Shown piece after piece: positions 40,233-63,919 of a DNA stretch of 64,000 nucleotides. Position 1 is the first letter of the stretch. The number at the start of each line of letters is the position of its first letter. Origin of the DNA: Actinotalea subterranea (GTDB taxonomy: Bacteria; Actinomycetota; Actinomycetes; Actinomycetales; Cellulomonadaceae). Under the pieces are notes generated by a model. It was given only the letters and a program-made list of their open reading frames with translations, was not told the DNA's origin and did not search any database. The stretch covers positions 581,594 through 645,593 of the forward strand of contig NZ_VTTP01000001.1 of assembly GCF_008364845.1 (NCBI RefSeq), read 5' to 3'. Both the position numbers and the translations under genes were made by a program.

Positions 40233-40262
40233 GCGGCACGCGACGCGCCCCGCCGGCTCAGT
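40233..40262. repeat. 30-bp dispersed repeat, copy 2
   Basis: Second copy of the element at 37836-37865 (28 of 30 identical), lying at the stop codon of the FAD monooxygenase gene. The preceding bases (from about 40185) contain a partly inverse copy of the same sequence, so a weak hairpin could form between the convergent genes. Confidence 0.7.
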
Positions 40263-41499
40263 ACCGGTAGACCGTCTCCGCCCGGTGCACGCCGCGGGGA
40301 CCGTACGGCGCCTTCTCGAGCCACGCCGACGCCTCGGCGTCCTGCGGCGCACGGGCGGCGGCGGCACGTACGGCCGCCGCCGTCTCGGGCCCCGGGCGCA
40401 GGTGCGCCAGGGCCTCGCCCGCGGCGTCGCGGTTGAACAGCGCGGCCGACCTGCGCGCGAGGGCGAACGCCTCCACGGGTGTGCGCGCGGCGGCGCGGTT
40501 GGTCGCCCGGAGCGCCGCCGCGATCGCGACGGCCGCGGCCTCAGCGTCGGGCACCCCCGAGTTCAGCCCCCGCGCCCCGAACGGCGCGAACAGGTGCGCC
40601 GCCTCGCCCACCAGCAGTACGCGCCGGCTCGGGTCCGCGAAGTCGTGCGCCACGAGCTGGAGGAACTGGTACGTCGACACCCAGGACGTGCGGTCCGCGT
40701 AGCCGGGTGGGAGCACCGCGTCCAGCCACGCACGCACGCCGTCCGGCGAGGCGAGCCCCTCCGGGTCGTCGCCGTCCACGAGCTGGAGGTCCACGCGGTA
40801 CCCGCCCGCGAAGGGGACCACGAGGACGTTGCGCCCGTCGACCGCGGGGTGCGCGTAGTGGAAGTGCCGCTCGCGGGGCAGCGTGGGCTGCTCGATCTCG
40901 TCGACGTCGACGACGACGTACCAGCCGTCGTCCTTGCCACCCTCCATCCGGGCCCCGACCTGCTTGCGCACGACCGAGCGGGAGCCGTCGGCCCCGACGA
41001 CGTACTCGGCCGTCCACCGCCGCCCGGACGACGTCGTGAGCGTCACGCCGGCGTCGTCCGCGCTCACGCCGGCGATCTCCTGGTCCCACACGAGCTCGAC
41101 GCCGGCGACCACGGCGCGCGCCTGGAGGTACGCCTCGATGCGGACCTGCGGCAGGCTCGTGAAGTGCGGGTACACGCCCTCGGGCGGCGACGGGTACGTC
41201 TTCGCGTACACCTCGCGGCCCTCGTAGAAGGTGCGCTGGGTGTTCCAGTACACCCCGTGGCGGGAGAGCTCCGCACCGAGCCCGGGGCTGATCCGGTCGA
41301 GGATCTGCAGCGTCTGGCTGTGCGTGAAGATGGCCCGGCTGCCGGGCCGTTGCCGGCCCTCGGGCCCGGCCTCGAGCACGGTCACCGGGACGCCGTAGGC
41401 ACGCAGCGCGAGGGCGGCCGTGAGGCCGACCGGCCCCGCCCCGACCACGATCACCCCGCGGGCCGTGCCGTCCGGGCTCTGTGCGCTCACGCTGGACAT
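40258..41499 (-). CDS. FAD-dependent aromatic monooxygenase (PHBH superfamily)
   Basis: 413 residues, ATG with GAGAGGAGA upstream. Class A flavoprotein hydroxylase: FAD Rossmann motif GAGPVG (residues 20-25), the DG motif 'YVVGADGSRSVVRK', and 'LLVGEAAHLFAPFGARGLNSG' (~300-320) which replaces the usual GDAAH by GEAAH. These enzymes hydroxylate phenolic acids with NAD(P)H and O2. As gentisate-cleaving genes are encoded nearby, hydroxylation of 3-hydroxybenzoate or a salicylate-type compound to gentisate is the most attractive role, but other substrates are possible. Last gene of a three-gene operon; it overlaps the acyl-CoA synthetase gene by 13 bases. Confidence 0.88.
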   Translation of the reverse strand: MSSVSAQSPDGTARGVIVVGAGPVGLTAALALRAYGVPVTVLEAGPEGRQRPGSRAIFTHSQTLQILDRISPGLGAELSRHGVYWNTQRTFYEGREVYAKTYPSPPEGVYPHFTSLPQVRIEAYLQARAVVAGVELVWDQEIAGVSADDAGVTLTTSSGRRWTAEYVVGADGSRSVVRKQVGARMEGGKDDGWYVVVDVDEIEQPTLPRERHFHYAHPAVDGRNVLVVPFAGGYRVDLQLVDGDDPEGLASPDGVRAWLDAVLPPGYADRTSWVSTYQFLQLVAHDFADPSRRVLLVGEAAHLFAPFGARGLNSGVPDAEAAAVAIAAALRATNRAAARTPVEAFALARRSAALFNRDAAGEALAHLRPGPETAAAVRAAAARAPQDAEASAWLEKAPYGPRGVHRAETVYRY

Positions 41500-43628
41500 G
41501 GTTCTCCTCTCGGGGGTGCCGCCACGACCAGGGCGTCGAGGGCGACGGGGCCATCGGCCGTGAGCCGGACCGGGTTCAGGTCGACCTCGGCGATGTCGTG
41601 GTGCTCACTGATCAGGTCGCCCACCGCGCGCAGCACGTGGGCCAGGGCCGCGACGTCGACCCCGGGCCCGCCCCGGAAGCCGTCGAGCACGGCCCGGGGC
41701 AGCGCGCGGACCATCTCCTGTGCGCGCGCCGGGGACAGCGGGGCGAGCCTCAGCACCGGGTCGCGGCCGAGCTCCGCGGCGACGCCGCCCAGCCCGAGGA
41801 GCACGACGGGGCCGAAGACGCGGTCACGCACGGCACCCACGATGAGGTCCGTCCCGGGCTCGGCCATCACCTCGACGAGGTACCGCCGGGTGGCGGCGCG
41901 CGGGCTGTCGGCCGACGCGTGGGACGCCTCGTGCTCGATCGCGTCGATCGCGTCGAGCGCCCGGTCGAGCGCGGCCCGGTCGGTCAGGCCGACGTGCACC
42001 CCGCCGACGTCGGACTTGTGGAGCACGTCCGCGTCGAGGACCTTGACGACGACGGGCCGCCCGGGCCGCGCGAGGTCGTCGAACGCCGCGTGGGCCTGCG
42101 ACCGGTCGGCCGCCGGGCGGCGTACCGGCGCACGCACGCCGTAGGACTCGAGGAGCGTCTTGCCCTCGTGCTCGTCGAGCGTGCGCCCGACGCCGCGCGT
42201 GGGCGTCACCGGCTCGGCGTCCCGGACGCCGCGCAGGCGGGCATCGGTGACGACCGCCGTCAGGGCAGTCGCGAGCTCCCCCGGCCCGGCGAGCATCGGC
42301 ACGCCCGCGAGGTCCAGCTCCCGACGGCGCTCGACCATCGCAGCCTCGGGTCCCCCGCTCGCGAAGAGCACGCGGCCCGCGACGGGCCGCAGGGCGGTGA
42401 CGGGGTCGAGCGCTCCGGGCTCGTCGAGCGCGAACACGCCGACGACGTCGACGGCGGGGTCGGCGACGACCGCCGCGACGACGTCGCCGAAGCCCGCGGC
42501 CGGCCGGCCGGTGTCCACGGGGTTGCGCTGGAACGTGAGGGGCGGGAGCAGCTCGGCGATGCGCCGCTGGGTCGCGCCGCCGAGGGCCGGGAGGTCGATG
42601 CCGCGTGCGCCGAGCGCGTCGGCGACGACCAGGCCCGGCCCTGCCTGCCCCGTGACGAGCCCGACGCCGGCCCGCGAGCCCGCCGTGAGCCTGAGCACGC
42701 GCAGCGCCGCGAGCGAGGAGACCATCTCCTCGAGGCTCCCGACGACGACGGCGCCGGCCTGCTGAAGCGCGGCACGGGTCAGCGCGTACGAGCCCGTCAT
42801 CGCACCGGTGTGCGACCGCGCGAAGTCCGACACGTCCGAGCGTCCCACCACGAACGCGACCACGGGCTTACGCGCGGTGACCCGGCGCAGCGCCGCGACG
42901 AGCGCCCGGCCGTCGGCGACACCCTCGATGTGCAGGCCGACGGCGGTCGTCGCGTCGTCCTGCGCGAGGAAGTCCAGGAGCTCCGGGAAGTCGACGTCGA
43001 CCGCGTTGCCGAGCCCGGCACCGAGCCGCAGGCCCACGCCCGCACGCGCCAGCATGAACGCGATGGTCAGGTTCACGCCGCCCGACTGCGCGACGACGCT
43101 CACCGAGCCCGCCGCGAGCTCGGCCACGGCCGGCATGAAGTTTGCCGTCGTGGCGTCGACCGGGTTCATGAACCCGGACGTGTTGGGCCCGAGGAGGCGG
43201 ATGCCCGCGTCCTGCGCCGTGCGCGCGACCCGCTGCTGGAGGCGCGCGCCCTCGGGGCCGCTCTCGGCGAAGCCGCCGGCGCACACGACGGCGGCGCGGA
43301 CGCCTGCCGCGCCGGCGTCCTCGAGCGCTCCGGGGACGGCCTCGGGCGGGACCACGAGGACCGCAAGGTCCACGCCGGTGCACTCCCGGAGGCTGCCGAT
43401 CACCGGCCGCCCGAGCACCTCCCCGCCGCGCGGGTTGACAGGGTGCAGGGCGCCGGGGAAGTGCCGCAGCGCCTGCACCATCGCGTGGCCGGCCTTCCCG
43501 GGCTGCGCGGACGCGCCGACGACCGCGACGGCGGCGGGGCGGAACATCGGCTCGAGCGGGTGCTGACCGGCGTACGACGGGCCGCGCGCCGCGTCCACCT
43601 GCTCGGTGGTCGGGCGGACGGCTGTCAC
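41487..43628 (-). CDS. ADP-forming acyl-CoA synthetase (fused alpha and beta subunits)
   Basis: 713 residues; the GTG start overlaps the upstream stop (GTGA). Order of domains: CoA-binding Rossmann domain (~25-145, 'VAVVGASAQPGKAGHAMVQAL'), succinyl-CoA-synthetase-like flavodoxin domains (~150-470) with the phospho-histidine His273 in ARSHTGAMTGS, and an ATP-grasp domain (~490-700: 'VVKVLDADVLHKSDVGGV', 'EVDLNPVRL'). Such enzymes interconvert acyl-CoA plus ADP and phosphate with acid plus ATP. In this operon, between an FAH hydrolase and an aromatic hydroxylase, it may activate an aromatic acid or recover energy from an acyl-CoA. Direction unknown. Confidence 0.92.
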   Translation of the reverse strand: MTAVRPTTEQVDAARGPSYAGQHPLEPMFRPAAVAVVGASAQPGKAGHAMVQALRHFPGALHPVNPRGGEVLGRPVIGSLRECTGVDLAVLVVPPEAVPGALEDAGAAGVRAAVVCAGGFAESGPEGARLQQRVARTAQDAGIRLLGPNTSGFMNPVDATTANFMPAVAELAAGSVSVVAQSGGVNLTIAFMLARAGVGLRLGAGLGNAVDVDFPELLDFLAQDDATTAVGLHIEGVADGRALVAALRRVTARKPVVAFVVGRSDVSDFARSHTGAMTGSYALTRAALQQAGAVVVGSLEEMVSSLAALRVLRLTAGSRAGVGLVTGQAGPGLVVADALGARGIDLPALGGATQRRIAELLPPLTFQRNPVDTGRPAAGFGDVVAAVVADPAVDVVGVFALDEPGALDPVTALRPVAGRVLFASGGPEAAMVERRRELDLAGVPMLAGPGELATALTAVVTDARLRGVRDAEPVTPTRGVGRTLDEHEGKTLLESYGVRAPVRRPAADRSQAHAAFDDLARPGRPVVVKVLDADVLHKSDVGGVHVGLTDRAALDRALDAIDAIEHEASHASADSPRAATRRYLVEVMAEPGTDLIVGAVRDRVFGPVVLLGLGGVAAELGRDPVLRLAPLSPARAQEMVRALPRAVLDGFRGGPGVDVAALAHVLRAVGDLISEHHDIAEVDLNPVRLTADGPVALDALVVAAPPRGEPCPA

Positions 43629-44482
43629 CGCTGCCCCGGGCGGGTGGCGTACGCGATCGCGCGCTCGTCGCTCACGCCGACCTCGAGCCGTCCGAGGCCC
43701 TCGATCTCGACGGCGACCTGGTCGCCGGCCGCGACGGGTCCCACGCCGGCGGGCGTGCCGGTGGCGATGACGTCCCCGGGGTGGAGGGTCATCACGTGGC
43801 TCGTGTAGGCGATGAGCTCGGCGACGCCGTAGATGAGGTCGGCGGTCGAGGCGCGCTGACGCAGCTCTGCCCCGACCCAGCACCTCAGCTCGAGCGAGCC
43901 CGGGTCGGGCACCTCGTCGGCCGTGGTCACCCAGGGTCCGATCGGCGTGAACGTGTCGAAGGACTTGCGGGTCGAGCGGTCCTCGCCGGACCGCACCGTG
44001 ATGTCCAGGAGCGGCACGTACCCGAAGACGTGCTCGAGGGCCCGTTCCGCGGGTACGCGGCTCGCCTCGCGGCCGATGACCACGCCGAGCTCTCCCTCGT
44101 GGTCGGTGCGCACGTCGGTGTACGGGAGCCGGATCAGCCCGCCGTGGCCGATGACCGACGAGCTCGCCTTGAGGAAGACGCCGTAGTCGGCGATGGTCCG
44201 CTGCTCGCCCATCTCGGCCTTGTGGTCGAGGTAGTTCACGGGTGCACCGACCACCTTGCCGGGACGCGCGAGGGGGGCCGCGAGCCGCAGCGCGCCGGCA
44301 GCGCGGGCCGGCAGCGTGTCGAGGTCGAGCGACCGGAGCTCGTCGAGCGTGCCGCCCCGCTCGAGGAACGACAGGAGCGGGCCGCCGGCGCCCGGCACGA
44401 GGTCGAGGGCGTCGGTGAGATCGACGGCCCGGTCGCCCAGGAGGGCGTGCAGGCGCGCGTCGAGGGTGCTGGCTAACCTCAT
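43625..44482 (-). CDS. Fumarylacetoacetate hydrolase-family protein (copy 1)
   Basis: 285 residues from ATG 44482 (GGGAG ten bases upstream). FAH catalytic domain from ~75 to the end: 'VNYLDHKAEMGEQ', metal-binding 'TDHEGELGVVIGREA', 'FGYVPLLDITVRS' and 'GDVIATGTPAGVGP'. The protein resembles ureidoglycolate lyase/acylpyruvase-type and 2-hydroxyhepta-diene-dioate isomerase members, so it could hydrolyse a C-C bond of a ring-cleavage product such as fumarylpyruvate or maleylpyruvate. A second FAH gene is in the gentisate operon. First gene of the operon, divergent from the PaaX gene, with a strong-looking promoter. Confidence 0.9.
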   Translation of the reverse strand: MRLASTLDARLHALLGDRAVDLTDALDLVPGAGGPLLSFLERGGTLDELRSLDLDTLPARAAGALRLAAPLARPGKVVGAPVNYLDHKAEMGEQRTIADYGVFLKASSSVIGHGGLIRLPYTDVRTDHEGELGVVIGREASRVPAERALEHVFGYVPLLDITVRSGEDRSTRKSFDTFTPIGPWVTTADEVPDPGSLELRCWVGAELRQRASTADLIYGVAELIAYTSHVMTLHPGDVIATGTPAGVGPVAAGDQVAVEIEGLGRLEVGVSDERAIAYATRPGQR

Positions 44483-44511: not shown

Positions 44512-44548
44512 TGACATGACTATCGGCGAGCGGCGTAGGATATGTCAA
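44512..44548. promoter_or_regulatory. Divergent promoter with TGACAT/ATGTCA boxes (PaaX 1 / catabolic operon A)
   Basis: On the minus strand TTGACA (44548-44543) and GATAGT (44524-44519) with an 18-base spacer form a promoter for the FAH-led operon. On the plus strand TAGGAT (44536-44541) with TGACAT (44512-44517) 18 bases upstream fits the regulator gene. The boxes TGACAT (44512-44517) and ATGTCA (44542-44547) are inverted copies and lie in both promoters. The same TTGACAT word recurs next to the second PaaX gene, so it is a candidate PaaX operator. Confidence 0.6.
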
Positions 44549-44589: not shown

Positions 44590-45558
44590 GTGGCACACGT
44601 GAGCCGGACCGACGCGGACGGGCCACGCGCACCGCGCACCCGCCAGGGCTCCCCGCCGAGCCTGCTCCTGACCCTGCTGGGCGACTACTGGTGGGGGCAG
44701 GAGGAGCCGCTGCCGTCGGCCGCGCTCGTCGACCTGCTCGCGGACTTCGGCGTCAGCGACGTCGCCGCGCGCGCGGCGCTCAGCCGCATGGTCAAGCACG
44801 GGCTGCTCGTCTCGACGCGCAACGGGCGCAACACGTTCTACGCGATGACCCCGCGCGCGCAGGCGGTCATGCGCGAGGGCGCCGTCCGGATCGTCGCCTT
44901 CGGCAGGGGCGACGGCGCCGAGTGGGACGGCCGGTGGAGCCTCGTGGCGTTCTCGGTGCCGGAGGCCAACCGCTCCGCCCGCGAGGCCCTGCGGACCCGG
45001 CTGCGCTGGCTGGGGTTCGCCCCGCTCTACGACGCCCTGTGGATCTCCCCGCACCCGCGCCACGACCAGGCGCTCGCCGAGCTCGGCGACCTCGGGGTGA
45101 CCAGCGCGACCGCGTTCGTCGCGACGTCGCCCGAGCTGCCGGCGACGACGCTGGCCCCCCAGAGCGCATGGGACCTCGAGGGGCTCGCCGACCTGTACCG
45201 GGCGTTCGTCGCGGAGTGGAAGCCCACGCACTCGGCCCTCGGCAAGGGGACCATCTCCCCGGTCGACGCCCTCACCCGCAGGACCGAGCTCATGGACGCC
45301 TGGCGCGCGTTCCCGGGCCTGGACCCCGACCTGCCGCGGCGGCTGCTGCCCGTCGACTGGCCGCGGGACGCCGCGCGCGACCTGTTCCTCGACACGTACG
45401 AGAAGCTCGGCGCCCCCGCGTCGGTCCGCGTGCGCCAGGTGATCGGCGCCTACGCCCCCGAGCTCGCGACGCGCGTCGTCCAGTTCTCCGTCGCCGCGGA
45501 CCACCCGGGCCCCCGGGCCCCTGACGTCGCGCTCAGCCCGGCGGCGTCGGCTCGCTGA
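44590..45558 (+). CDS. PaaX-family transcriptional regulator (copy 1)
   Basis: 322 residues from GTG 44590, selected because GAGAGGGG precedes it; an ATG at 44542 lies inside the promoter boxes and is unlikely. N-terminal winged helix ('FGVSDVAARAALSRMVKHGLL' splits into FGVSDVAARAALSRM and VKHGLLVSTRNG), PaaX-like dimerisation core with 'EWDGRWSLVAFSVPEANRSA', 'LRWLGFAPLYDALWISPHP', and the PaaX C-terminal domain ('DAWRAFPGLDPDLPRRLLP'). PaaX represses phenylacetate catabolism with phenylacetyl-CoA as inducer; here an aromatic or acyl-CoA effector is likely. Its 3' end overlaps the convergent thioesterase gene by 26 bases. Confidence 0.93.
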   Translation: MAHVSRTDADGPRAPRTRQGSPPSLLLTLLGDYWWGQEEPLPSAALVDLLADFGVSDVAARAALSRMVKHGLLVSTRNGRNTFYAMTPRAQAVMREGAVRIVAFGRGDGAEWDGRWSLVAFSVPEANRSAREALRTRLRWLGFAPLYDALWISPHPRHDQALAELGDLGVTSATAFVATSPELPATTLAPQSAWDLEGLADLYRAFVAEWKPTHSALGKGTISPVDALTRRTELMDAWRAFPGLDPDLPRRLLPVDWPRDAARDLFLDTYEKLGAPASVRVRQVIGAYAPELATRVVQFSVAADHPGPRAPDVALSPAASAR

Positions 45559-45934
45559 CCACGGCCCCGAGGCCCGCGCGCAGCGCCGGCGGGAGCTCGG
45601 CCGGCTGGTCGTGCGCGTCGACGTGGACGCAGGTCGTCGAGCCCTGCACGCACACCGCGCCGTCCCGCACGACCCGCCAGCCGTAGGTGATCGACGTGCG
45701 CCCGAGGTTGGTGGCCCGCACCTCGACCTGCACCTCGTCCCCGAACCTCAGGGGCGCGAGGAAGTCCACGACCACGTGCCGGCGCGGGTAGCTCGTGAGG
45801 TCGACCGCGCCCGCCGCGCGCAGCAGCTGGTGCTCGGCCCGCTCGGCCCAGCGCAGCGCGGCCGTGTGGTGGATCCGGCCGCCCGCGTCGGTGTCCACGA
45901 ACTCCACGCGCACGGGTTCGCTGTGCGTGCGCAC
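45533..45934 (-). CDS. 4-hydroxybenzoyl-CoA-type (4HBT) hotdog thioesterase
   Basis: 133 residues; GTG directly follows the TGA of the SDR gene (TGAGTG), with GGGGGA in front. Hotdog fold with 'RVEFVDTDAGGRIHHTAALRWAE' (residues 9-31), the D-x-G-x-x-x-x motif containing the catalytic Asp of 4HBT/YbgC thioesterases, then 'VVVDFLAPLRFGDEVQVEV'. It releases CoA from a short or aromatic acyl-CoA. As last gene in the CoA ligase-thiolase-MaoC-SDR operon it is a good candidate for freeing a hydroxybenzoate or gentisate from its CoA ester. Confidence 0.9.
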   Translation of the reverse strand: MRTHSEPVRVEFVDTDAGGRIHHTAALRWAERAEHQLLRAAGAVDLTSYPRRHVVVDFLAPLRFGDEVQVEVRATNLGRTSITYGWRVVRDGAVCVQGSTTCVHVDAHDQPAELPPALRAGLGAVVSEPTPPG

Positions 45935-46852
45935 TCAGTCCCCCAGGTCCAGCGGCGGCAGGGTGATCCCGCTCGGCTGCGCGTGCGCCGCGAACGTCGT
46001 CGGCCACTGCGCGGCGATCGCGTCGGCGGTCCAGCCGCCCTCGCGGTAGGTGACGGCGAGCTCCTGCGGCACCGAGTACACCGAGAGCTTGTCCCCGCCG
46101 ATGCCGATCGCCTGGCCGGTCACCCCGGCGGACGCGTCGGACGCGAGCCACACGACCAGTGGCGCGACGTCCTCGGGCCCGCCGAGCGCGTGGTCGCGCC
46201 GCACGACGCGCGGCAGCGGCTCGCCACGGTCGTACGCGGCGGCGACGTCGGCGTACACGGGGATCGTCGCCGTCATGGCGGTGATCGCCGTCGGCACGAT
46301 CGCGTTGACCATGACCCCTGCGCGCGCGAGCTCGAGGGACCACGTCCGGGCCATCGCGACGACGCCCGCCTTCGCGGCCGCGTAGCTCGTCTGGCCGATG
46401 TTGCCGTGCTGCCCCGCGGGCGAGCCGACGAGCACGATCCGGCCACCCTCGCCCCGATCCCGCATGTGCACGGCCGCCGCCCGGGCGGTCGTGAACGCCC
46501 CACGCAGGTGCGTCTGGACGACGAGGTCGAAGTCCTCGTCGGTCGTCTTCCACAGCATGCGGTCCCGCAGCACGCCCGCGTTCGCCACGAGCACGTCGAG
46601 CCCGCCGAACGCCTCGACCGCGGCGGCCACGAGGAGGTCGGCCGTCTCGGTCGGCCCGACGGGTGCGACGACGGCGACCGCGGACCCGCCGTCGGCCGTG
46701 ATCGCGTCGACCGTCTGCTGCGCGGAGCCCGCGTCGACGTCGTTGACCACGACGCTGGCGCCGGCCGCCGCCAATGCGCGGGCGTAGGCCCTGCCGAGGC
46801 CCTGACCGCTGCCCGTGACGACGGCCGCCTTGCCCGTGAGGTCCGTGCTCAT
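45935..46852 (-). CDS. SDR-family 3-hydroxyacyl-CoA dehydrogenase-like oxidoreductase
   Basis: 305 residues; ATG overlaps the MaoC stop (ATGA). Cofactor motif TGSGQGLG (residues 13-20), Asp40 selecting NAD(H), NAG at 91-93, and catalytic Ser144, Tyr157, Lys161 (YAAAK). Length and 'LTGKAAVVTGSGQGLGRAYA' beginning resemble the hydroxyacyl-CoA dehydrogenase part of multifunctional peroxisomal enzyme-type SDRs. Together with the MaoC hydratase and thiolase it would complete the oxidation of a beta-hydroxyacyl-CoA. The C-terminal extension (~230-305) is typical of that subgroup. Confidence 0.92.
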   Translation of the reverse strand: MSTDLTGKAAVVTGSGQGLGRAYARALAAAGASVVVNDVDAGSAQQTVDAITADGGSAVAVVAPVGPTETADLLVAAAVEAFGGLDVLVANAGVLRDRMLWKTTDEDFDLVVQTHLRGAFTTARAAAVHMRDRGEGGRIVLVGSPAGQHGNIGQTSYAAAKAGVVAMARTWSLELARAGVMVNAIVPTAITAMTATIPVYADVAAAYDRGEPLPRVVRRDHALGGPEDVAPLVVWLASDASAGVTGQAIGIGGDKLSVYSVPQELAVTYREGGWTADAIAAQWPTTFAAHAQPSGITLPPLDLGD

Positions 46853-47346
46853 GCGTAGTACCTCACGATCATCACGGCGACGGCGGCGGGCTTGGCCTGC
46901 CCCTCGACCTCGAAGGTGTTCTCGAAGACGGCCTGGTAGCCGCCCGGCACCTCGGTGACCTCCGTGAGCGTCGACGTCACACGGATGCGTGAGCCGACCC
47001 GCACGGGTGCGGGGAAGCGGAGCCGGTCGAGCCCGTAGTTGACGCCCGTGGCGACGCCGGTGACGTCCACGAGCTCGGCCATGAGCGGGACGACGAGGGC
47101 CAGGGTGAAGTAGCCGTGGACGATCGTGCCGCCGAACGGCGTGCGGGCCGCGTACTCCTGGTCCAGGTGGATCGGGTTGTGGTCGCCCGTGAGGTCGGCG
47201 AACCGGTCGACCTCGTCCTGCGTCACGGTGCGCCAGGACGAGGGGCCGAACGTGCGGCCGACGGCGGCGGGCAGGTCGGCGAGGGGAACTGCGGCGGGGC
47301 CGGCCGGTGCGGCCGTGGCCCCGGGGGCTGCGTGCTCTGCGGTCAT
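46849..47346 (-). CDS. MaoC-like enoyl-CoA hydratase
   Basis: 165 residues. After an Ala/Pro-rich start, a single hotdog domain with the (R)-hydratase signature 'ADLTGDHNPIHLDQEYAA' (catalytic Asp and His within GDHNPIH) and 'GGTIVHGYFTLALVVPL'. It should hydrate a trans-2-enoyl-CoA. Located between thiolase and SDR genes of the same strand, 67 bases after the thiolase stop. The best-supported role is the hydration step of a side-chain beta-oxidation. Ribosome site GAGAGCGAG is weak. Confidence 0.92.
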   Translation of the reverse strand: MTAEHAAPGATAAPAGPAAVPLADLPAAVGRTFGPSSWRTVTQDEVDRFADLTGDHNPIHLDQEYAARTPFGGTIVHGYFTLALVVPLMAELVDVTGVATGVNYGLDRLRFPAPVRVGSRIRVTSTLTEVTEVPGGYQAVFENTFEVEGQAKPAAVAVMIVRYYA

Positions 47347-50531: not shown

Positions 50532-50545
50532 GTGACGATCGTCAC
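50532..50545. promoter_or_regulatory. 14-bp perfect palindrome upstream of operon B
   Basis: GTGACGATCGTCAC at 50532-50545 lies about 105 bases before the CoA ligase start (minus strand) and just after the PaaX gene 2 stop. The only obvious structured element in 50428-50575; candidate operator of operon B. Confidence 0.5.
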
Positions 50546-56567: not shown

Positions 56568-56568
56568 G

Positions 56569-57441: not shown

Positions 57442-58529
57442 GCGAGGTCCTCGTTGCGCTGGCCGGGCACGTAGGTGCGCGTGAAGTGGAGGCGGTCGAT
57501 GATCGGCCCGTCGGTGAACCGGAAGAGGTCGAGCTGCGTGTCGGCGTGCAGCGACCACGGCACCCAGCTCGGGACGGCGAACAGGTCGCCGGTCTCGAGG
57601 CGGTGCTCGGTCCCGCCGAGGACGACGGTGCCCTCGCCCTCGAACACCTGCCACACCGAGGAGCCGACCTCGTGGCGGGGCGCCGTCTCGGCGCCGCTGC
57701 GCAGCCGGTGGAACTCGCACCGCAGGGTGGGCATCACGTCCCCGCCGGTCGTGGGGTTGACGTACCGGATCGCGGCGTGGCCCTGCTCGACCGTGGCGGG
57801 ATGGCCGGCGTCCTCGAGCGCGAGCTGCTCGCGCAGCGCACGGTCGGTGTGCTCCCAGCGGTAGGCCGCGAGCGGCGAGCTGGGCTGGTCCTCGAGGGCG
57901 GACAGGGGGCGCAGGCCGGGGTGGGCCCAGAGCCGCTCGGAGCGCGACACGTCCGGCGACGCCTCGTCGGTCACGCGCTCCGAGCCGAACTCGAAGAACC
58001 CGACGTCGGTGTAGTGCGAGAACGGCACGTCCAGGCCGTCGATCCAGGCCATCGGCTGGTCGGTGTCGTTGTGGTGGCCGTGGAAGTTCCAGCCCGGCGT
58101 GAGCAGCAGGTCGCCGCGGCGCATCGCGACGGGGTCGCCGTTGACGACGGTCCAGACGCCCTCGCCCTCGACGACGAAGCGGAAGGCGTTCTGGCTGTGC
58201 CGGTGCTCCGGGGCGGTCTCGTGGCCGCCGAGGTACTGGATGGCGCACCAGAGGGTCGGGGTCGCGTAGGCGGTTCCCGGCAGGCCGGGGTTGGCCAGGC
58301 CGAGGGCGCGACGCTCGCCGCCGCGGCCGACGGGGACGAGCTCGCCGGAGCGTTCCGCGAGCCCGTAGAGGGTCGACCACTTCCACACGTGCGGCAGCGC
58401 CTTGGGCGCGGGCGCGAAGGGCATGAGGTCGTCGCGCTGGGTCCAGAGGGGAGAGAGGTTCTGGGCCGCGAAGTCGGTGTAGAGCTGCTGGAGCTCGGGG
58501 GTGTCGGCGTGGCCGTCCATCTGCTGCAC
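57438..58529 (-). CDS. Gentisate 1,2-dioxygenase
   Basis: 363 residues from GTG 58529 with AGGAGGACACC upstream; the frame is open further but has no better site. Bicupin protein: iron ligands His109, His111 (PEHRHSQNAFRFV) and His150 (GWNFHGH) in the first cupin; 'GTEHRLETGDLFAVPSWVPW' in the second cupin. The enzyme opens gentisate with O2 to maleylpyruvate. First gene of operon D, followed by the hydrolase, isomerase and MarR genes. 'HETAPEHRHSQNAFRF' is diagnostic, separating it from 1-hydroxy-2-naphthoate dioxygenase only moderately, but the operon supports gentisate. Confidence 0.95.
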   Translation of the reverse strand: MQQMDGHADTPELQQLYTDFAAQNLSPLWTQRDDLMPFAPAPKALPHVWKWSTLYGLAERSGELVPVGRGGERRALGLANPGLPGTAYATPTLWCAIQYLGGHETAPEHRHSQNAFRFVVEGEGVWTVVNGDPVAMRRGDLLLTPGWNFHGHHNDTDQPMAWIDGLDVPFSHYTDVGFFEFGSERVTDEASPDVSRSERLWAHPGLRPLSALEDQPSSPLAAYRWEHTDRALREQLALEDAGHPATVEQGHAAIRYVNPTTGGDVMPTLRCEFHRLRSGAETAPRHEVGSSVWQVFEGEGTVVLGGTEHRLETGDLFAVPSWVPWSLHADTQLDLFRFTDGPIIDRLHFTRTYVPGQRNEDLA

Positions 58530-58558: not shown

Positions 58559-58576
58559 TCGTTGGTACACCAACGA
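58559..58576. promoter_or_regulatory. Operator palindrome upstream of the gentisate operon
   Basis: TCGTTGGTACACCAACGA at 58559-58576 has 8-base perfect arms around AC, 30 bases upstream of the gentisate dioxygenase start. It lies where the promoter should be and is a strong candidate site for the MarR encoded by the same operon. Confidence 0.65.
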
Positions 58577-58683: not shown

Positions 58684-58781
58684 CACGGCGCGGGGGCGGA
58701 TGGGGGGTGGGTGTGGGGGGGCTCCGCAGCCCAGACCTCAGGTCCCAGCCGGTGCCCGAGGCGCAGACCTACGATCACGCC

Positions 58782-59969
58782 ATGGCACCCGCCGGGTCCT
58801 ACCTCGCCGAGCTCGTCCGGATCAACGACACCCTGATCTGGTCCCACGACCGGACGGACTCGCTCATCGCAGCCGTCGCTGTCGTCCGCGACCTCATGGG
58901 CGCGCGGCTCGCACCCACCTACCTGCTCGACGAGGCGGGGAACCTGCTCGTCCTCGTCACAGACGACGAGCAGCGCGCCGTCCTCGGCGAGGGCTTCGCG
59001 ACCATGCCTGCGCACGAGCACGTGCGCGAGCCGTGGATCAACCCGCAGGAGTGGCCCGTCTCCGCGGCCGACCACCTGGACCATGAGGCGTGGACGAGCC
59101 TTCCGGCCGACTTCCGGGCCTGGTTCGGCGAGTCCGGCGTCGTCGTCTCCATCCACGCCGACGGACGCCACCTCGGCGCGGTGCTGCTGTGCTTCGACGG
59201 ACCGTTCACGCTCACCCAGGAGCGCAAGGAGTTCCTCGCCGCCGCCGGCCGCATCCTCGGCAACGCCGTGTACCGCTGGCAGGTCGGCAGCCGCGAGCGC
59301 GAGCTCGGTGCGCTCGAGGAGCGCCGCCGGCTGAGCGACGAGCTCCACGTGGACCTGTCCCAGCAGGTCGCGGCCGTGGGGCTGCACGCCGGGGTGATGC
59401 GGCTCGACGCGGTCGCGGGTGACACCGCCCGCCTCGCGCAGGACCTGGACCGGCTCGACGAGCTCGTCGGCGTCCTCGGCCGCAGCCTGCGTCACCAGAT
59501 GCTCGGCCTGCGCGCCGACGGGGAGATGGTCGGCGGCACGTTCGTCGACCAGGTGCGCGTGCACGTCGAGAACTTCCGGCGCCAGATCGGCATCCCCGTG
59601 ACGGTCGAGTGCCCGGGCGGCTGCACCGGTGACGAGGTGCCGCTGCCCGTCGCCGCCCAGCTCATCCGCGTGCTCCAGGAGGCGCTCGCGAACGTGCACC
59701 TGCACGCCCGGGCGGCGACCGTCACGGTGCGGGTGCTGCCGTCGCACACCCGGATCCGCCTCGAGGTCGAGGACGACGGCAACGGGTTCGACCCCACGAG
59801 CGTCCCCGACTCCCGCCTCGGCGTGGCCATCATGACCGAGCGCATGCAGCAGGTGGACGGCGTCGTGCACTTCGGACGGGGCGCGGCGGGCGGCACGCTC
59901 GTCACGGCCGAGGCCCCGCTGCACCCGGCCCGTCACGGGCGCGCGATCCCCGCAGGGACGGGTGCCTGA
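58782..59969 (+). CDS. Soluble GAF-type sensor histidine kinase (HisKA_3)
   Basis: 395 residues from ATG 58782. No ribosome site; TACGAT (58770-58775) lies six bases before the ATG, fitting a leaderless mRNA. No membrane helix; residues ~20-165 resemble a GAF-like sensor ('GARLAPTYLLDEAGNLLVL'). HisKA_3 phospho-acceptor His189 in 'LSDELHVDLSQQV' is followed by Val, where the family almost always has Asp or Glu. HATPase_c with N-box 'LIRVLQEALANVHLHA' and 'DDGNGFDP'. It probably reads an intracellular aromatic or redox signal and controls the neighbouring catabolic genes through the regulator encoded next. Confidence 0.9.
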   Translation: MAPAGSYLAELVRINDTLIWSHDRTDSLIAAVAVVRDLMGARLAPTYLLDEAGNLLVLVTDDEQRAVLGEGFATMPAHEHVREPWINPQEWPVSAADHLDHEAWTSLPADFRAWFGESGVVVSIHADGRHLGAVLLCFDGPFTLTQERKEFLAAAGRILGNAVYRWQVGSRERELGALEERRRLSDELHVDLSQQVAAVGLHAGVMRLDAVAGDTARLAQDLDRLDELVGVLGRSLRHQMLGLRADGEMVGGTFVDQVRVHVENFRRQIGIPVTVECPGGCTGDEVPLPVAAQLIRVLQEALANVHLHARAATVTVRVLPSHTRIRLEVEDDGNGFDPTSVPDSRLGVAIMTERMQQVDGVVHFGRGAAGGTLVTAEAPLHPARHGRAIPAGTGA

Positions 59970-60633
59970 CGTGGGCACCGGTCCGACGACCGTCCTCGTG
60001 GTCGACGACCACGCGCTGTTCCGCGACGGCCTCATGGCGCTGATCAGCCGCTGGGACGACTTCACGGTCATCGGCAGCGCCGCCGACGGCGCGGAGGCGG
60101 TCCGGCTCGCCGCGACCCTGCGGCCGCAGCTGATCCTCATGGACGTGCGCATGGCGGGCGTCGGGGGCGTCGAGGCCACGCGGCAGATCACGGCCGCCGA
60201 CCCGGACGTGCGCGTCGCGATGCTCACCATGTCGAGCCTCGGCGAGGACGTGTTCCAGGCGCTGCGCAACGGCGCGCACGGCTACCTCAGCAAGGACGAG
60301 CCCTCCGAGCGGCTGCACGCCGCCCTCGCCGGCCTGATGCGCGGCGAGACCGCGCTGTCGTCGACGATCGCGGCGATGGTGCTCGCCGAGTTCGGCCGGC
60401 CGGGCCAGGCGACCCACCACCTCGTCCCGCCCGCGCGTGAGCGGCTCTCCCAGCGCGAGCGTGACGTGCTGCGCCTGCTCGTCGACGGGCTGTCGAACGA
60501 GCAGATCGGCCAGGAGCTCTTCCTCAGCGAGGCCACGGTCAAGAAGCACCTCGGCAGCATCATGACCAAGCTCCACGTGCGTAACCGTGTCCAGGTCGCG
60601 GTGCTCGGCGTGCGCGAGGGGATCGTCGGCTGA
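59962..60633 (+). CDS. NarL/FixJ-family response regulator
   Basis: 223 residues from GTG 59962, overlapping the kinase stop by eight bases; GTG 59971 is an alternative. Receiver with Asp15-Asp16, phospho-acceptor Asp61 (LILMDVRMAG) and Lys in YLSKDEP; LuxR-type HTH at ~165-215 ('LSQRERDVLRLLVDGLSNEQ', 'EATVKKHLGSIMTKL'). It forms a pair with the kinase. An 18-bp perfect palindrome directly after its stop codon precedes the ETF operon and could be its target. Confidence 0.94.
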   Translation: MPDVGTGPTTVLVVDDHALFRDGLMALISRWDDFTVIGSAADGAEAVRLAATLRPQLILMDVRMAGVGGVEATRQITAADPDVRVAMLTMSSLGEDVFQALRNGAHGYLSKDEPSERLHAALAGLMRGETALSSTIAAMVLAEFGRPGQATHHLVPPARERLSQRERDVLRLLVDGLSNEQIGQELFLSEATVKKHLGSIMTKLHVRNRVQVAVLGVREGIVG

Positions 60634-60635
60634 GA

Positions 60636-60653
60636 GGTAGCCGATCGGCTACC
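60636..60653. promoter_or_regulatory. 18-bp perfect palindrome between regulator and ETF operon
   Basis: GGTAGCCGATCGGCTACC at 60636-60653 begins two bases after the response regulator stop. It is either a compact operator for the flavoprotein operon (starting at 60767) or a short terminator. A TTGACT at 60698-60703 might be a -35 box, but no matching -10 was seen. Confidence 0.5.
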
Positions 60654-60766
60654 CCGGTGTACCCGAAGGGGGCTGGCCCGGCAGCGGCCCGCGCGGCTTG
60701 ACTCGAAGGAGACGGGGCTGCGCCACGGCGCAGGCGCCCGTACGGGTCGCAGCGAAGGGTCGCCGG

Positions 60767-61498
60767 ATGAGGGCAGTGGTCGCCTACACGTGGGCACGGG
60801 ACGTCGCGGACGCCGCGGTCCGTCAGGACGGGACCGTCGAGTGGCGCAAGGACAAGATGTCGCCGGGCGAGGACGACCACGCGGCGCTCGCGGCAGGGCT
60901 CGCCCTCACCACCGACGGCGGCACCCTCGTAGGCCTGACCTGCGGCAACGGCGACGCGAGCTGGGCGCTGGCCCGCGGCGTCGAGCAGGCCGTGCACGTC
61001 ACCGACGCGACACCGCACGACGACGACGCGGCGACGGCGGCCGTCCTCGCCGCGGGCGTGCGGTCGATCGGGGCGGTCGACGTCGTGCTCGTCGGCGACA
61101 GCGAGGAGCACCCCGGTGTACCCGTGGCCCTGGCCGCGCACCTGGGCTGGCCTGCCGTGGTCGGTGTGACGACCGCCGCCGCGCGGGACGGGCGCGTCGA
61201 GGTGGTCCGCACCGTCGGAGACCTCGAGGAGACGCTCTCGCTCGCGCCGCCCGTGGTGGTCGCCGTGGCCGCGAGGTCCGCCGAGACCCGCGTCCCGGGC
61301 ATGAAGGAGCTGCTCGCCGCGCGCAAGCGCCCGGTGACGCGCACGACCCTCGCCGAGCTCGGCGTCGACGTCCCTGACACCCTCGTGGCCCGCGGCACGC
61401 GCCTACCGGCGACGGCCCCCACCCGGGTGTTCGACGGCGAGCCCGGCGAGGCCACCCGGCAGCTGGTCGCGGCACTGCGCAACGAGGGAGTCCTGTGA
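60767..61498 (+). CDS. etfB: Electron transfer flavoprotein beta subunit
   Basis: 243 residues from ATG 60767 (AAGG upstream). Adenine nucleotide alpha-hydrolase-like fold of ETF beta/FixA. Family segments visible are 'VVAYTWARDVADAAVRQDG' at the start, 'VDVVLVGDSEEHPGVPVALAAHLGWP' (usually DLVLVGKQAIDGD...) and 'VAVAARSAETRVPGMKELLAARKRPV'. It carries AMP and forms a heterodimer with the alpha subunit that shuttles electrons between flavoenzymes. The sequence is divergent at 'GEDDHAALAAGLAL', where housekeeping ETFs have NPFDEIAVEEAL, so it is likely a specialised paralogue serving the flavoprotein encoded downstream. Confidence 0.9.
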   Translation: MRAVVAYTWARDVADAAVRQDGTVEWRKDKMSPGEDDHAALAAGLALTTDGGTLVGLTCGNGDASWALARGVEQAVHVTDATPHDDDAATAAVLAAGVRSIGAVDVVLVGDSEEHPGVPVALAAHLGWPAVVGVTTAAARDGRVEVVRTVGDLEETLSLAPPVVVAVAARSAETRVPGMKELLAARKRPVTRTTLAELGVDVPDTLVARGTRLPATAPTRVFDGEPGEATRQLVAALRNEGVL

Positions 61499-62427
61499 TG
61501 AGCGCTACCGCAACCGGCGCGTGGGTGATCGCGACGGAGGAGAAGCGGCTCGCGGCGATGGTGCGCGCGGCCCGCGCGCTCGGTGGCACCGTCACCGTCG
61601 TGGCCGTCGGCCCGCGCGCGCTCGCGGACGCGGCGTCGGCGGCCGGCCCCGACGGCGTGCTGTGGCTCGAGCCCGCGGGCGCAGAGCCGGTCGAGGCCCA
61701 CGCCGCCCACGTGGCCGCCGCGGCCGCGGACGCCGCGCCCCGGACGCTCCTCGCGACCGTCGAGCCCGGTGCGCGCGCGCTGCTCGGCGCCGCCGCCGTC
61801 CGCCTGGGCGCCGCAGTCGTGCCGGGCGTGCTGAGCCTGCGCACCGAGGGCGAGGGCGTCGTCGTCGAGTGCTCCGCCGCCGGCGGCGCCGCCATCGCGA
61901 CGCTCGCCTGCCCCGGCCCGCTCGCCGCCCTGTTCGCGGGCGACGACGACGTCACCGCTGCGGCGGCGCCCTCGGCGCCCGTCCGGGTGCTCGACGACGG
62001 GACGGCCCCCGCCGACCTGCGCGTCGTCGGGCGCGCCGCGAGCGGGCGGTCCGCCGGTGTGCGGGACGCGGAGCGCGTGGTGTCGGTGGGCCGCGGCCTG
62101 AAGGCGAAGGCGGACCTGGCGCTCGTCGAGAGCCTCGCGTCGACGCTCGGGGCGGAGGTCGCGTGCTCGATGCCCGTGGCCGAGGACCTCGGCTGGGTCG
62201 CCAAGGAGAGGTACGTGGGCCGGTCCGGCCAGCACATCTCCCCGCGCCTCTACGTGGCCCTCGGCATCTCCGGGACGCCGCAGCACATGGAGGGCGTGCG
62301 CGAGGCCAAGGTCGTCGTCGCCGTGAACAACGACCCCGCGGCGGCGATCTTCCGGACGGCGGACTACGGGATCGTCGGCGACCTGTACGACGTCGTCCCC
62401 GCGCTCGTCGCGGCACTGAGCTCGTGA
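61498..62427 (+). CDS. etfA: Electron transfer flavoprotein alpha subunit
   Basis: 309 residues from ATG 61498, which shares its A with the stop codon of the beta gene; GGGAG lies upstream. C-terminal FAD-binding domain (~195-305) with 'VVSVGRGLKAKADLALVESLA', 'WVAKERYVGRSGQHISPRLY', 'ALGISGTPQHMEGV' and 'NNDPAAAIFRTADYGIVGDLYDVVP', matching ETF alpha/FixB very well. The canonical SGQTG is SGQHI here. It binds the FAD that accepts or donates electrons. Same operon as the fumarate-reductase-like flavoprotein. Confidence 0.94.
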   Translation: MSATATGAWVIATEEKRLAAMVRAARALGGTVTVVAVGPRALADAASAAGPDGVLWLEPAGAEPVEAHAAHVAAAAADAAPRTLLATVEPGARALLGAAAVRLGAAVVPGVLSLRTEGEGVVVECSAAGGAAIATLACPGPLAALFAGDDDVTAAAAPSAPVRVLDDGTAPADLRVVGRAASGRSAGVRDAERVVSVGRGLKAKADLALVESLASTLGAEVACSMPVAEDLGWVAKERYVGRSGQHISPRLYVALGISGTPQHMEGVREAKVVVAVNNDPAAAIFRTADYGIVGDLYDVVPALVAALSS

Positions 62428-62461
62428 CGCAGGGGTCACGCAACACGAAGGAGTGAGACAG

Positions 62462-63919
62462 ATGTCAGAACAGTTCGACGTCGAGTACGACCTGGTCGTC
62501 GTCGGGGGTGGCGGGTCAGGGCTGTCGTGCGCCGTGCAGGCCGCCCAGAACGGGCTCAGCGTGGCCGTGCTCGAGAAGATGCCGCAGCTCGGCGGCAGCT
62601 CGGCGTTCGCGGAGGGCCACGCGGCCTTCGAGTCCGACGAGCAGGTCAAGCGCGGGATCGACGTGTCCAAGGACGAGGCGTTCCGCGCTTACATGGACTA
62701 CAGCCACTGGCACGCGGACTCGACGATCGTCTCCCGGTTCGTGGAGAACGCGGCCACGACCATCGTGAAGATGCGTGACCTGGGTGCGGTCTACGAGGAG
62801 GTCATCGTGACCGCGGAGGACCAGCCCGGCGAGCTCGTGACCTGGCACATCCCGCAGGGTGAGGTCGCCCGGGTGCTCGAGCTCATGGAGGCCAGGGCAC
62901 GCGAGCTGGGCGTCGAGATCTACCTGTCGACCCCCGCCAAGGAGATCCTCAAGGCCGACGGGCGCGTGGCCGGGGTGGTCGCGACCGACTCCGACGGCGA
63001 GGACGTGCGCATCGGCGCCAAGGCCGTCGTGGTCGGCACCGGCGGGTTCGCGAAGAACCCGGAGATGCTCAACAAGTTCTCCGCGTGGGACTGCGGCGCC
63101 CAGATGATCAACGTGGGCGGCGAGGGCAACGAGGGCGACGGCCTGCAGATGATGTTCGACGTCGGCGCCAAGGAGTGGTCGTCGATCGGCACGCTCCTGC
63201 TCTTCCCGTTCATGCGCGGCAAGACCGTCATGTCCCACACCAACACGGCGGGCTTCCAGCCCTACCTGTGGGTGGACCGCGACGGGCGCCGCTGCACCAA
63301 CGAGATCTGCGGCCTCAACTTCGGCAACGCGGGCGACGTCGTCGCCAACCTGCCGGGCAGCTTCTACTGGGCGGTCATCGACCAGGCCCAGGTGGACCAC
63401 CTGGTGCAGGACGGCTGCGAGGTCGGGCTCGGCGTGTACGTCCGCACGGGCGAGAAGCTCACGAACCTCCCGATGGAGCTCGCCGCGGACGTCGAGGCAG
63501 GCACCGTGTTCCGGGGCGAGACGCTCGCGGAGCTCGCCGCGGGCATCGGGGTGTCGCCGGAGGTGCTCGAGGCCGAGGTCGCCGAGTACAACCGCATGTG
63601 CCACGACGGCAAGGACACCCGGTTCCACAAGGAGAAGTACCTCGTCCCCGTCGAGACGGGCCCGTACTTCGCCATCAAGATGGAGCCCGGGATCATGGTC
63701 ACGATGGGCGGCATCAAGATCGACGACCAGATGCGCGTCATCGACCAGGCCGGTGCGCCCATCCCCGGCCTGTACTCCGTGGGCTGCGACGCCGGCGGCC
63801 TGTTCGGCGACTCGTACATCCTCACGGTCCCCGGCTCGGCCAACGGGTTCGCCCTGACGTCGGGCTGGCTCGCAGCAGACCACGCCACCCAGATGATCAA
63901 GGAGTTGGCGACCGTCTGA
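62462..63919 (+). CDS. Fumarate reductase/urocanate reductase-like FAD flavoprotein
   Basis: 485 residues from ATG 62462 (GGAG upstream), 34 bases after the ETF alpha stop. N-terminal FAD motif GGGGSGLSCA (residues ~18-27) with LEKMPQLGGSS; C-terminal 'IPGLYSVGCDAGGLFGDSYI' FAD-binding segment as in the FrdA/urocanate reductase/3-ketosteroid dehydrogenase group. No FMN or heme domain, no signal peptide: a soluble cytoplasmic enzyme whose electrons probably pass through the ETF pair. It should interconvert a C-C single bond and double bond next to a carbonyl or carboxyl, for instance in an aryl side chain. Which substrate and direction is not known. Confidence 0.88.
   Translation: MSEQFDVEYDLVVVGGGGSGLSCAVQAAQNGLSVAVLEKMPQLGGSSAFAEGHAAFESDEQVKRGIDVSKDEAFRAYMDYSHWHADSTIVSRFVENAATTIVKMRDLGAVYEEVIVTAEDQPGELVTWHIPQGEVARVLELMEARARELGVEIYLSTPAKEILKADGRVAGVVATDSDGEDVRIGAKAVVVGTGGFAKNPEMLNKFSAWDCGAQMINVGGEGNEGDGLQMMFDVGAKEWSSIGTLLLFPFMRGKTVMSHTNTAGFQPYLWVDRDGRRCTNEICGLNFGNAGDVVANLPGSFYWAVIDQAQVDHLVQDGCEVGLGVYVRTGEKLTNLPMELAADVEAGTVFRGETLAELAAGIGVSPEVLEAEVAEYNRMCHDGKDTRFHKEKYLVPVETGPYFAIKMEPGIMVTMGGIKIDDQMRVIDQAGAPIPGLYSVGCDAGGLFGDSYILTVPGSANGFALTSGWLAADHATQMIKELATV

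Follow-up and report, generated by a model that had tools for sequence, protein, structure and literature searches.

Which compound is degraded by the block of aromatic-acid genes at positions 40258-58529 of the window, and through which intermediates? The window is the whole stretch of 64,000 nucleotides from Actinotalea subterranea that was analysed. The preliminary description had proposed a single route, in which an aromatic acid with a side chain is shortened as a CoA ester, converted to gentisate and cleaved to pyruvate and fumarate, and the conserved block that we describe here supports it. We consider it very probable that these operons together form a genuine, conserved route by which a side-chain aromatic acid is turned into gentisate. 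Catabolism of a hydroxycinnamic acid, most likely p-coumarate, by hydroxylation at the CoA level with an NIH shift has, in our view, about an even chance of being correct. We infer every substrate and reaction, as well as the pairing of regulators with palindromes, from the sequences.

Open reading frames were called by frame composition and translation, and families were assigned by comparison with NCBIfam, Pfam and the PDB; the host genome (4.03 Mb, 28 contigs) was searched as a whole. Many NCBIfam scores lie below the curated cut-offs (for example, 255.7 bits against 442.1 for the gentisate_1_2 model), and the gene names used here denote families, not proven functions. Every gene type listed in the preliminary description was found, and positions 40258-63919 form five transcription blocks with the strands and operon layout given there. 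Beyond that list there are two PaaX-type regulators, a MarR regulator and a two-component system that precedes the electron-transfer flavoprotein (ETF) genes (Table 1).

A sporadic but conserved unit

The family sample comprised 121 genomes, that is, 120 besides the host's own. Thiolase orthologues (81-86%) occur in seven of the 120, namely G001, G014, G026, G027, G033, G048 and G087 (G denotes genomes and L loci); the other family-genome thiolase matches, among those listed, are all at 40% or less. G026 is a partial match on a 3.8 kb contig, and the remaining six carrier loci are long. All six have, in the same relative order, the class A flavin hydroxylase (FADOH), the ADP-forming acyl-CoA synthetase (ACD), FAH1, the thiolase, the AMP ligase, PaaX2, MarR, the isomerase and the dioxygenase. 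FAH2 is present in five of the six (not in G087), as are PaaX1, the thioesterase (TE), SDR and MaoC (not in G014), and the importer in three (G001, G033 and G087). A search for the gene set in relatives had been suggested as a check of the route, and for 40258-58529 its outcome is positive.

For the public genomes we considered 80 thiolase loci, the best 80 of at least 483 confirmed relatives. The block recurs up to the locus ends in 14 of them (L053-L065 and L069), which come from Cellulomonas, Isoptericola, Promicromonospora, Antribacter, Actinotalea and metagenome genomes; the loci of G001, G027, G033, G048 and G087 account for five of these. There are gaps among them, as TE is absent from L053-L056 and L069, the importer from L057, L059 and L060, and FAH2 from L058; in L057 additional ATPase-type genes adjoin TE. 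Among the matches listed, the closest named thiolase is that of Cellulomonas gelida (91%). As a separate observation, G014 carries a second, diverged importer (45-75%) that adjoins SDR (57%) and MaoC (49%) relatives (L218, 4375-9818).

In one metagenome genome (L067) the block is contiguous in a new order: dioxygenase, FAH2, isomerase, PaaX1, importer, thiolase, ligase, MaoC, SDR, TE, FAH1, FADOH. This locus has no ACD, PaaX2 or MarR. The set has been rearranged and yet is still together, which speaks for a single pathway with the importer as a member. Smaller cores are seen in the more distant loci L072 (Kibdelosporangium: PaaX, ACD, FADOH, a ligase-like gene and thiolase, with SDR and MaoC farther off), L074 (Nonomuraea: ACD, FADOH and thiolase) and L068 (Micromonospora: FADOH, TE-like, ligase-like and SDR-like genes and thiolase). 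Positions 40258-58529 are a sporadic but conserved unit.

The proposed route

According to our proposal, the importer would take up a p-coumarate-like acid, a common grass cell-wall phenolic, and the AMP ligase would convert it to the enoyl-CoA. MaoC would hydrate and SDR would oxidise this ester, and the thiolase would release acetyl-CoA to leave 4-hydroxybenzoyl-CoA. FADOH would hydroxylate C1 of the CoA ester while the thioester side chain migrates (NIH shift), to give gentisyl-CoA, from which gentisate would be freed by TE or by ACD run backwards; possibly, ACD would also activate free 4-hydroxybenzoate. The dioxygenase would turn gentisate into maleylpyruvate, to be handled either by the mycothiol-type isomerase and FAH2 or by FAH1 directly. 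Three repressor/operator pairs would switch the operons on stepwise. Hydroxylation at the CoA level seems to us somewhat likelier than its opposite, and for 4-hydroxybenzoyl-CoA as the intermediate, with an NIH shift, we see the chances as evenly balanced.

The side-chain operon unites, by enzyme class, a ligase, a hydratase, a dehydrogenase and an enzyme that cleaves a C-C bond. Residues Cys91, His351 and Cys381 of the thiolase are invariant in eight sequences. A hydantoinase A-type gene, of the family that we take to be that of acetophenone-type carboxylases, lies within the flanks of 11 of the 80 thiolase-relative loci (one representative was identified), and a 47% relative on the Pseudonocardia plasmid pLS2-2 (L052, 14986-16176) shares a polyketide-type cluster with the gene of an aromatic amino acid ammonia-lyase. 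Both contexts would suit an aryl-3-oxopropanoyl-CoA thiolase.

At the lower end, a cupin, an isomerase and a FAH-family gene stand in one operon, as expected for cleavage of the gentisate ring. The closest PDB relative of FAH2 is 6j57 (E 8e-82), presumably a fumarylpyruvate hydrolase. That of FAH1 is maleylpyruvate hydrolase (E 7e-56, residues 1-270 of 285), and FAH1 is nearer than FAH2 to the FAH of the haloarchaeal loci L146 and L150. Both ways of handling maleylpyruvate may occur in one cluster, and G087, whose locus lacks FAH2, may depend on FAH1. Searches for PF00775 intradiol and LigB dioxygenases, which did not extend to other extradiol types, found none in the own genome, and gentisate as the outlet fits with this absence.

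The flavin hydroxylase and its relatives

Among NCBIfam models, FADOH scores best against that of a broad FAD-oxidoreductase subfamily (228 bits, cut-off 416), and its best PDB relatives are rifampin monooxygenase and PnpA (E 1e-23 to 6e-23). Models of 3-(3-hydroxyphenyl)propionate/3-hydroxycinnamate hydroxylases match more weakly, all far below cut-off. We rejected 3-hydroxybenzoate 6-hydroxylase (3HB6H) as a candidate, its model NF006021 reaching 28 bits over the FADOH region against a cut-off of 459; no protein of the own genome passes this cut-off (best anywhere, 44.2 bits), and the hydroxylase of L117 serves as a positive contrast with 622.7 bits. The model of salicylyl-CoA 5-hydroxylase, which we take to be the SdgC type, is not found among the best 25 of 80 NCBIfam matches to FADOH.

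The FADOH family can be aligned from end to end between Actinomycetota and haloarchaea. In the tree, 18 thiolase-linked sequences (including one near-duplicate pair) form one clade and 11 haloarchaeal sequences a separate one, each with support 1.0. A search of 72,556 plasmids with FADOH at a threshold of E 1e-30 gave 38 records, of which at least 22 belong to haloarchaeal genera; 12 were read (11 haloarchaeal and one Streptomyces) and 26, two Variovorax records among them, were left out. Within 12-15 kb of FADOH, the 11 haloarchaeal records hold a CoA-binding (ACD-alpha-type) gene in 10 cases, with an adjacent partner subunit in six, a thioesterase in eight, a cupin in seven and a FAH gene in seven. 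The cupins of L146 and L172, the only two scanned, match the gentisate dioxygenase model with 203 and 206 bits (cut-off 442). On L146, homologues of FADOH (51%, by tblastn), ACD (44-45%), FAH1 (44%) and the dioxygenase (30%) stand together with a thioesterase that corresponds to TE by Pfam class only. Next to this gentisate module, L171 also encodes an AMP ligase, a 3-hydroxyacyl-CoA dehydrogenase/enoyl-CoA hydratase and a thiolase of another type together with an OB-fold protein, and L172 a thiolase and a dehydrogenase/hydratase. Side-chain degradation appears to be linked to this hydroxylase module in a second domain of life as well.

At 1e-60, FADOH relatives are found in 11 of 393 other genomes of the class (12 loci, L151-L162). 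A sample of Bacillota, the phylum of G513 (a metagenome-assembled genome), was used to look for a PhgB orthologue, without success: seven of 400 genomes match at 1e-40, one of them near full length (G745, 59%); transport ATPases are the sole window homologues within 20 kb of it.

Some further observations concern single relatives. The G745 gene (L195, 9668-10939) is a lone one, near an MmgE/PrpD gene and a P450, with no gentisate genes in 20 kb. On a Streptomyces goshikiensis plasmid (L148, 1-25197), two FADOH relatives lie in what looks like a biosynthetic cluster, together with pabB, AMP ligases, several desaturases and genes for a class IV aminotransferase and a carrier protein. L117 looks like a parallel side-chain-to-gentisate route with a different hydroxylase. 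Near haloarchaeal FADOH genes there are phenylacetyl-CoA epoxidase-like genes (L175, 14725-16805, and L177, 6166-9570), which perhaps oxygenate an unhydroxylated aryl-CoA ring.

Release of the acid from CoA

The preliminary description had the acid released as free hydroxybenzoate before hydroxylation. We find this step doubtful, because TE is missing from eight of 17 loci, FADOH is not the free-acid enzyme 3HB6H, and its haloarchaeal relatives are mostly near genes of both a CoA ligase and a thioesterase. Both ACD and TE are present in eight of the 17 loci (window, G001, G027, G033, G048, G087, L061 and L062), ACD only in eight (G014, L053-L056, L069, L072 and L074) and TE only in one (L067), which gives ACD in 16 of 17. 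Loci that end first were excluded (L057 and L064, both with TE and with ACD beyond their reach; L068, with a TE-like gene, where the left end had been reached; L118; G026), and the absence of TE was judged at E 10 (L053-L056, L069, L072), E 1e-8 (L074) and E 1e-10 (G014). TE is dispensable at the locus and ACD is nearly always kept; either function may come from elsewhere in the genome. Complementarity of the two is a weak argument: no locus among the 17 is without both, against 0.5 expected under independence, a difference that is not statistically meaningful.

ACD retains the motifs SHTGA and HKSD, which we take to be its catalytic phospho-His motifs. Five of the 11 haloarchaeal records (L146, L147, L150, L171 and L177) have contiguous ligase and thioesterase genes next to a dioxygenase-type cupin. 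The link of a CoA ligase, a flavin hydroxylase and a thioesterase to a gentisate operon holds by enzyme class, not by kinship. The motifs, the wider retention of ACD (16 of the 17 loci, against nine for TE) and the haloarchaeal arrangement would fit a reading in which the acid stays on CoA from p-coumaroyl-CoA through 4-hydroxybenzoyl-CoA to gentisyl-CoA and ACD, not TE, then frees gentisate while making ATP, with TE as a mere bypass; we regard this combination as unlikely.

Which acid is degraded

Class A flavin hydroxylases require a phenolic substrate. According to excerpts of three papers (PMC10815724, PMC6592069, PMC3572157), Haloarcula sp. D1 converts 4-hydroxybenzoate to gentisate with an NIH shift, and some Bacillus also form gentisate from 4-hydroxybenzoate, by a mechanism that the excerpts do not state. 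The one from 2013 adds that there was no gene sequence for the haloarchaeal 4-hydroxybenzoate 1-hydroxylase at that time (PMC3572157). PhgABC (Zhao 2018) is described, in an excerpt of PMC7862547, as the product of three genes that turns 4-hydroxybenzoate into gentisate: the acid is bound to CoA as a thioester, hydroxylated with a 1,2-shift and then set free by hydrolysis. Since it joins these reports with the genes of the window, 4-hydroxybenzoyl-CoA that is hydroxylated at C1 as CoA ester, with a shift, would be the simplest reading.

There are several points on the other side. When phgABC was expressed in Pseudomonas, gentisate was not detected, as far as the excerpt goes (PMC7862547). Haloferax sp. 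D1227 is reported, in part of PMC4005966, to degrade benzoate, 3-hydroxybenzoate, phenylpropionate and cinnamate via gentisate, and the haloarchaeal genes therefore need not serve 4-hydroxybenzoate. Moreover, the FADOH family has other uses and is not confined to gentisate routes, since it has relatives outside gentisate clusters: the 12 actinobacterial loci L151-L162 show no dioxygenase, thiolase or ACD homologue, and FADOH of the Streptomyces plasmid and of the one Bacillota genome has no dioxygenase or thiolase homologue nearby. Among the haloarchaeal records, L149 lacks the partner genes altogether and L173 has just one, an ACD-like gene, and the thiolase-linked FADOH of L118 falls outside the main clade. 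The G014 locus is without MaoC, SDR and TE; relatives of SDR and MaoC lie elsewhere in that genome. Finally, a betaproteobacterial thiolase relative (49%; L117, 396-4943) stands beside MarR, 3-hydroxybenzoate 6-monooxygenase, a gentisate dioxygenase-like gene and FAH, and since this 6-monooxygenase is a true one, related thiolases also serve a 3-hydroxy route.

Potentially, the substrate could be a 3-hydroxycinnamate or 3-(3-hydroxyphenyl)propionate. Hydroxylation at C6 would then take place on 3-hydroxybenzoyl-CoA or, once the thioester is hydrolysed, on the free acid, and without an NIH shift. The combination in L117, where the 6-monooxygenase is over cut-off, and the weak FADOH matches to the corresponding hydroxylase models would agree with this. 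On the other hand, L117 uses a 3HB6H and FADOH is outside that family, and the widely kept ACD would have no obvious role for free 3-hydroxybenzoate. We regard this alternative as rather unlikely.

An o-coumarate/melilotate route would pass through salicyl-CoA, with FADOH as salicyl-CoA 5-hydroxylase and TE yielding gentisate. The conversion of salicylyl-CoA to gentisyl-CoA and gentisate is established logic. No salicylyl-CoA 5-hydroxylase model is among the best 25 of 80 FADOH matches, and we regard this route as quite improbable. The haloarchaeal reports of an NIH shift name 4-hydroxybenzoate in their excerpts, but use of salicylate by halophiles is reported too, in part of PMC4005966.

Regulators and palindromes

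Promoters were aligned for 17 sequences (window, G001, G014, G027, G033, G048, G087, L053-L057, L061, L062, L064, L067 and L069); the copies L058-L060, L063 and L065 (of G087, G048, G027, G001 and G033), distant loci and the G026 fragment were left out of the counts. TGACA-N24-27-TGTCA occurs twice in the window, against 0.06 expected, both times in a divergent promoter (FAH1/PaaX1 and importer/PaaX2), and is found upstream of FAH1 in 14 of 16 sequences and upstream of the importer in 12 of 12. TGACG-N2-CGTCA precedes the AMP ligase in 15 of 16, its single copy in the window being unremarkable in itself. TCGTTGG-N4-CCAACGA precedes the dioxygenase in 12 of 13; there is one exact copy in the window, and 0.19 are expected at two or fewer mismatches. 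Three different conserved palindromes rule out one operator shared by all operons.

G014 has neither PaaX1 (best other matches 35-36%) nor TGACA-N24-27-TGTCA, and the L067 locus, without PaaX2 and MarR, is also without TGACG-N2-CGTCA and TCGTTGG-N4-CCAACGA. As regulator and motif are lost together in these cases, each of them a single one, PaaX1, PaaX2 and MarR probably bind TGACA-N24-27-TGTCA, TGACG-N2-CGTCA and TCGTTGG-N4-CCAACGA, respectively. The importer and the hydroxylase operon have a common palindrome type; a different palindrome precedes the side-chain operon, and yet another the gentisate operon. Because of this difference the operons are probably induced stepwise by successive intermediates and not by one inducer; co-induction of all operons by one substrate, which had been put forward as a test of the route, is probably too simple.

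The three palindromes and regulators would also fit two or more independent aromatic operons that serve different substrates and are neighbours by chance, as would the finding that the importer, TE, PaaX1, FAH2 and (in L067) ACD are each missing somewhere. However, the nine core genes are together in all six long loci, the L067 set is together after rearrangement, and the importer carries the same type of palindrome as the hydroxylase operon, which makes a chance neighbourhood very unlikely.

The ETF/flavoprotein operon

The suggestion of the preliminary description that the ETF/flavoprotein pair may act as the acyl-CoA dehydrogenase of the route is not supported. In the six long loci, whose sequence continues for 8-13 kb beyond the dioxygenase, no two-component, ETF or flavoprotein match adjoins the block; most public loci end near or before the dioxygenase and have no bearing on this question. 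The flavoprotein (E <=1e-100) is found in four of the 120 other family genomes (G013, G047, G053 and G107) and in none of the seven carriers, and in those four it adjoins ETF genes or, in the second G013 copy, a kinase/regulator pair. Its best NCBIfam model is the vinylphenol reductase VprA (359 bits, cut-off 600). We judge the operon not to belong to the pathway, given its absence from the six long loci and that of the flavoprotein, at this threshold, from the carriers. A saturated aryl-propionate as substrate, with this pair as the missing dehydrogenase, has in its favour that the ETF genes lie beside the flavoprotein and adjacent to the block in this one genome, but against these absences and the sub-cut-off vinylphenol reductase match it is highly improbable. 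A cinnamate-type side chain is already unsaturated, and an acyl-CoA dehydrogenase is therefore not needed. The operon, rare in the family, perhaps encodes a signal-controlled enoate or phenol reductase.

Table 1. Features of the block and its surroundings (window coordinates)
Feature	Position	Strand	Basis
FADOH, class A flavin hydroxylase; proposed hydroxybenzoyl-CoA hydroxylase (4-hydroxybenzoyl-CoA 1-hydroxylase with NIH shift)	40258..41499	-	PF01494, alignment, tree, haloarchaeal context
ACD, ADP-forming acyl-CoA synthetase; proposed aryl-acid activation or ATP-forming aryl-CoA release	41487..43628	-	NCBIfam/Pfam, motifs SHTGA and HKSD
FAH1, FAH-family hydrolase	43625..44482	-	closest PDB relative maleylpyruvate hydrolase
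Inverted repeat TGACA-N26-TGTCA, proposed PaaX1 operator	44512..44547		FAH1/PaaX1 divergent promoter
PaaX1 regulator	44605..45558 (start uncertain, 44542-44605)	+	family match
TE, 4HBT hot-dog thioesterase; proposed gentisyl-CoA (aryl-CoA) thioesterase	45533..45934	-	family match
SDR, proposed 3-hydroxyacyl-CoA dehydrogenase	45935..46852	-	family match
MaoC, proposed (R)-type enoyl-CoA hydratase	46849..47346	-	family match, D.NP.H motif present
Thiolase, proposed aryl-3-oxopropanoyl-CoA thiolase	47414..48604	-	family match; Cys91, His351, Cys381
AMP-forming acyl-CoA ligase, proposed cinnamate-type CoA ligase	48601..50427	-	family match
Palindrome TGACG-N2-CGTCA, proposed PaaX2 operator	50533..50544		upstream of AMP ligase
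PaaX2 regulator	50576..51463	-	family match
Second long-spaced repeat TGACA-N25-TGTCA	51531..51565		importer/PaaX2 divergent promoter
ABC importer, proposed aromatic-acid uptake	51644..55203	+	binding protein and permeases by family match, ATPase from its sequence
Importer: binding protein	51644..52630	+	
Importer: permeases	52627..53619, 53616..54404	+	
Importer: ATPase	54397..55203	+	
MarR regulator of gentisate operon	55196..55765	-	family match
Mycothiol-type maleylpyruvate isomerase	55806..56567	-	TIGR03083 over cut-off, PF11716
FAH2, FAH-family, proposed fumarylpyruvate hydrolase	56569..57441	-	family match, PDB relative
Gentisate 1,2-dioxygenase-type cupin	57438..58529	-	TIGR02272 best but below cut-off, PF07883
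Palindrome TCGTTGG-N4-CCAACGA, proposed MarR operator	58559..58576		upstream of gentisate operon
Two-component system, ETF beta, ETF alpha, FAD_binding_2 flavoprotein; judged outside pathway	58779..63919 (kinase start approximate)	+	family matches

Elsewhere in the window, on the minus strand of positions 13833-23725, there are two long frames (1214 and 2083 codons) whose composition resembles that of coding sequence.

Relation to known systems

PhgABC has, according to its excerpt, the same chemistry as we propose for the window, that is, thioester formation, hydroxylation with shift and hydrolysis. Side-chain shortening is not described in that excerpt, one CoA ligase of the window is ADP-forming, and the likeness is drawn from enzyme class, not from kinship with PhgB. 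The haloarchaeal plasmid clusters (L146, L150, L171 and L172) share a homologous FADOH (46-52%), a FAH1-type FAH and a dioxygenase-type cupin with the window; the ACD alpha/beta pairs of L146, L147 and L150 are at 42-45% to the window ACD, and the thioesterase is of the same Pfam class. They differ by the split ACD, a thiolase of another type with an OB-fold partner (L171) and other transporters and regulators. The classical gentisate pathway has the same dioxygenase, maleylpyruvate isomerase and fumarylpyruvate hydrolase, whereas its hydroxylase, 3HB6H, is of another family.

For the side chain, the cou genes of Rhodococcus jostii RHA1 likewise provide CoA-dependent beta-oxidative deacetylation of p-hydroxycinnamates with a MarR that senses the CoA ester; there, however, the last step is that of an amidohydrolase, CouO, and the free acid that it yields is channelled to protocatechuate, in contrast to thiolase and gentisate here (PMC4737184, in part). 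An amidohydrolase is absent from the window operon, as is a PF00775 intradiol dioxygenase from the genome. The phd cluster of Corynebacterium glutamicum, compared here by its description, likewise degrades phenylpropanoids by CoA-dependent beta-oxidation in an actinobacterium, and an excerpt of PMC12125101 does not mention a link to a hydroxylase/gentisate module. In Comamonas serinivorans SP-35, coumaroyl-CoA is likewise proposed to be shortened to 4-hydroxybenzoyl-CoA, by enzymes that are 'still not clear', but the ester is hydrolysed to free 4-hydroxybenzoate (excerpt of PMC6307125). Among the listed titles and abstract openings of open-access papers we found no route from p-coumarate to gentisate via 4-hydroxybenzoyl-CoA, which is not proof of absence.

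If the proposal is correct, beta-oxidation of a hydroxycinnamate side chain and CoA-level hydroxylation with an NIH shift, both of them known, would be joined in one actinobacterial cluster (e.g. of Cellulomonas). This would give these bacteria a route for grass phenolics that bypasses protocatechuate and free hydroxybenzoate. The FADOH family would then be a candidate, and a directly testable one, for the gene of the haloarchaeal 4-hydroxybenzoate 1-hydroxylase.

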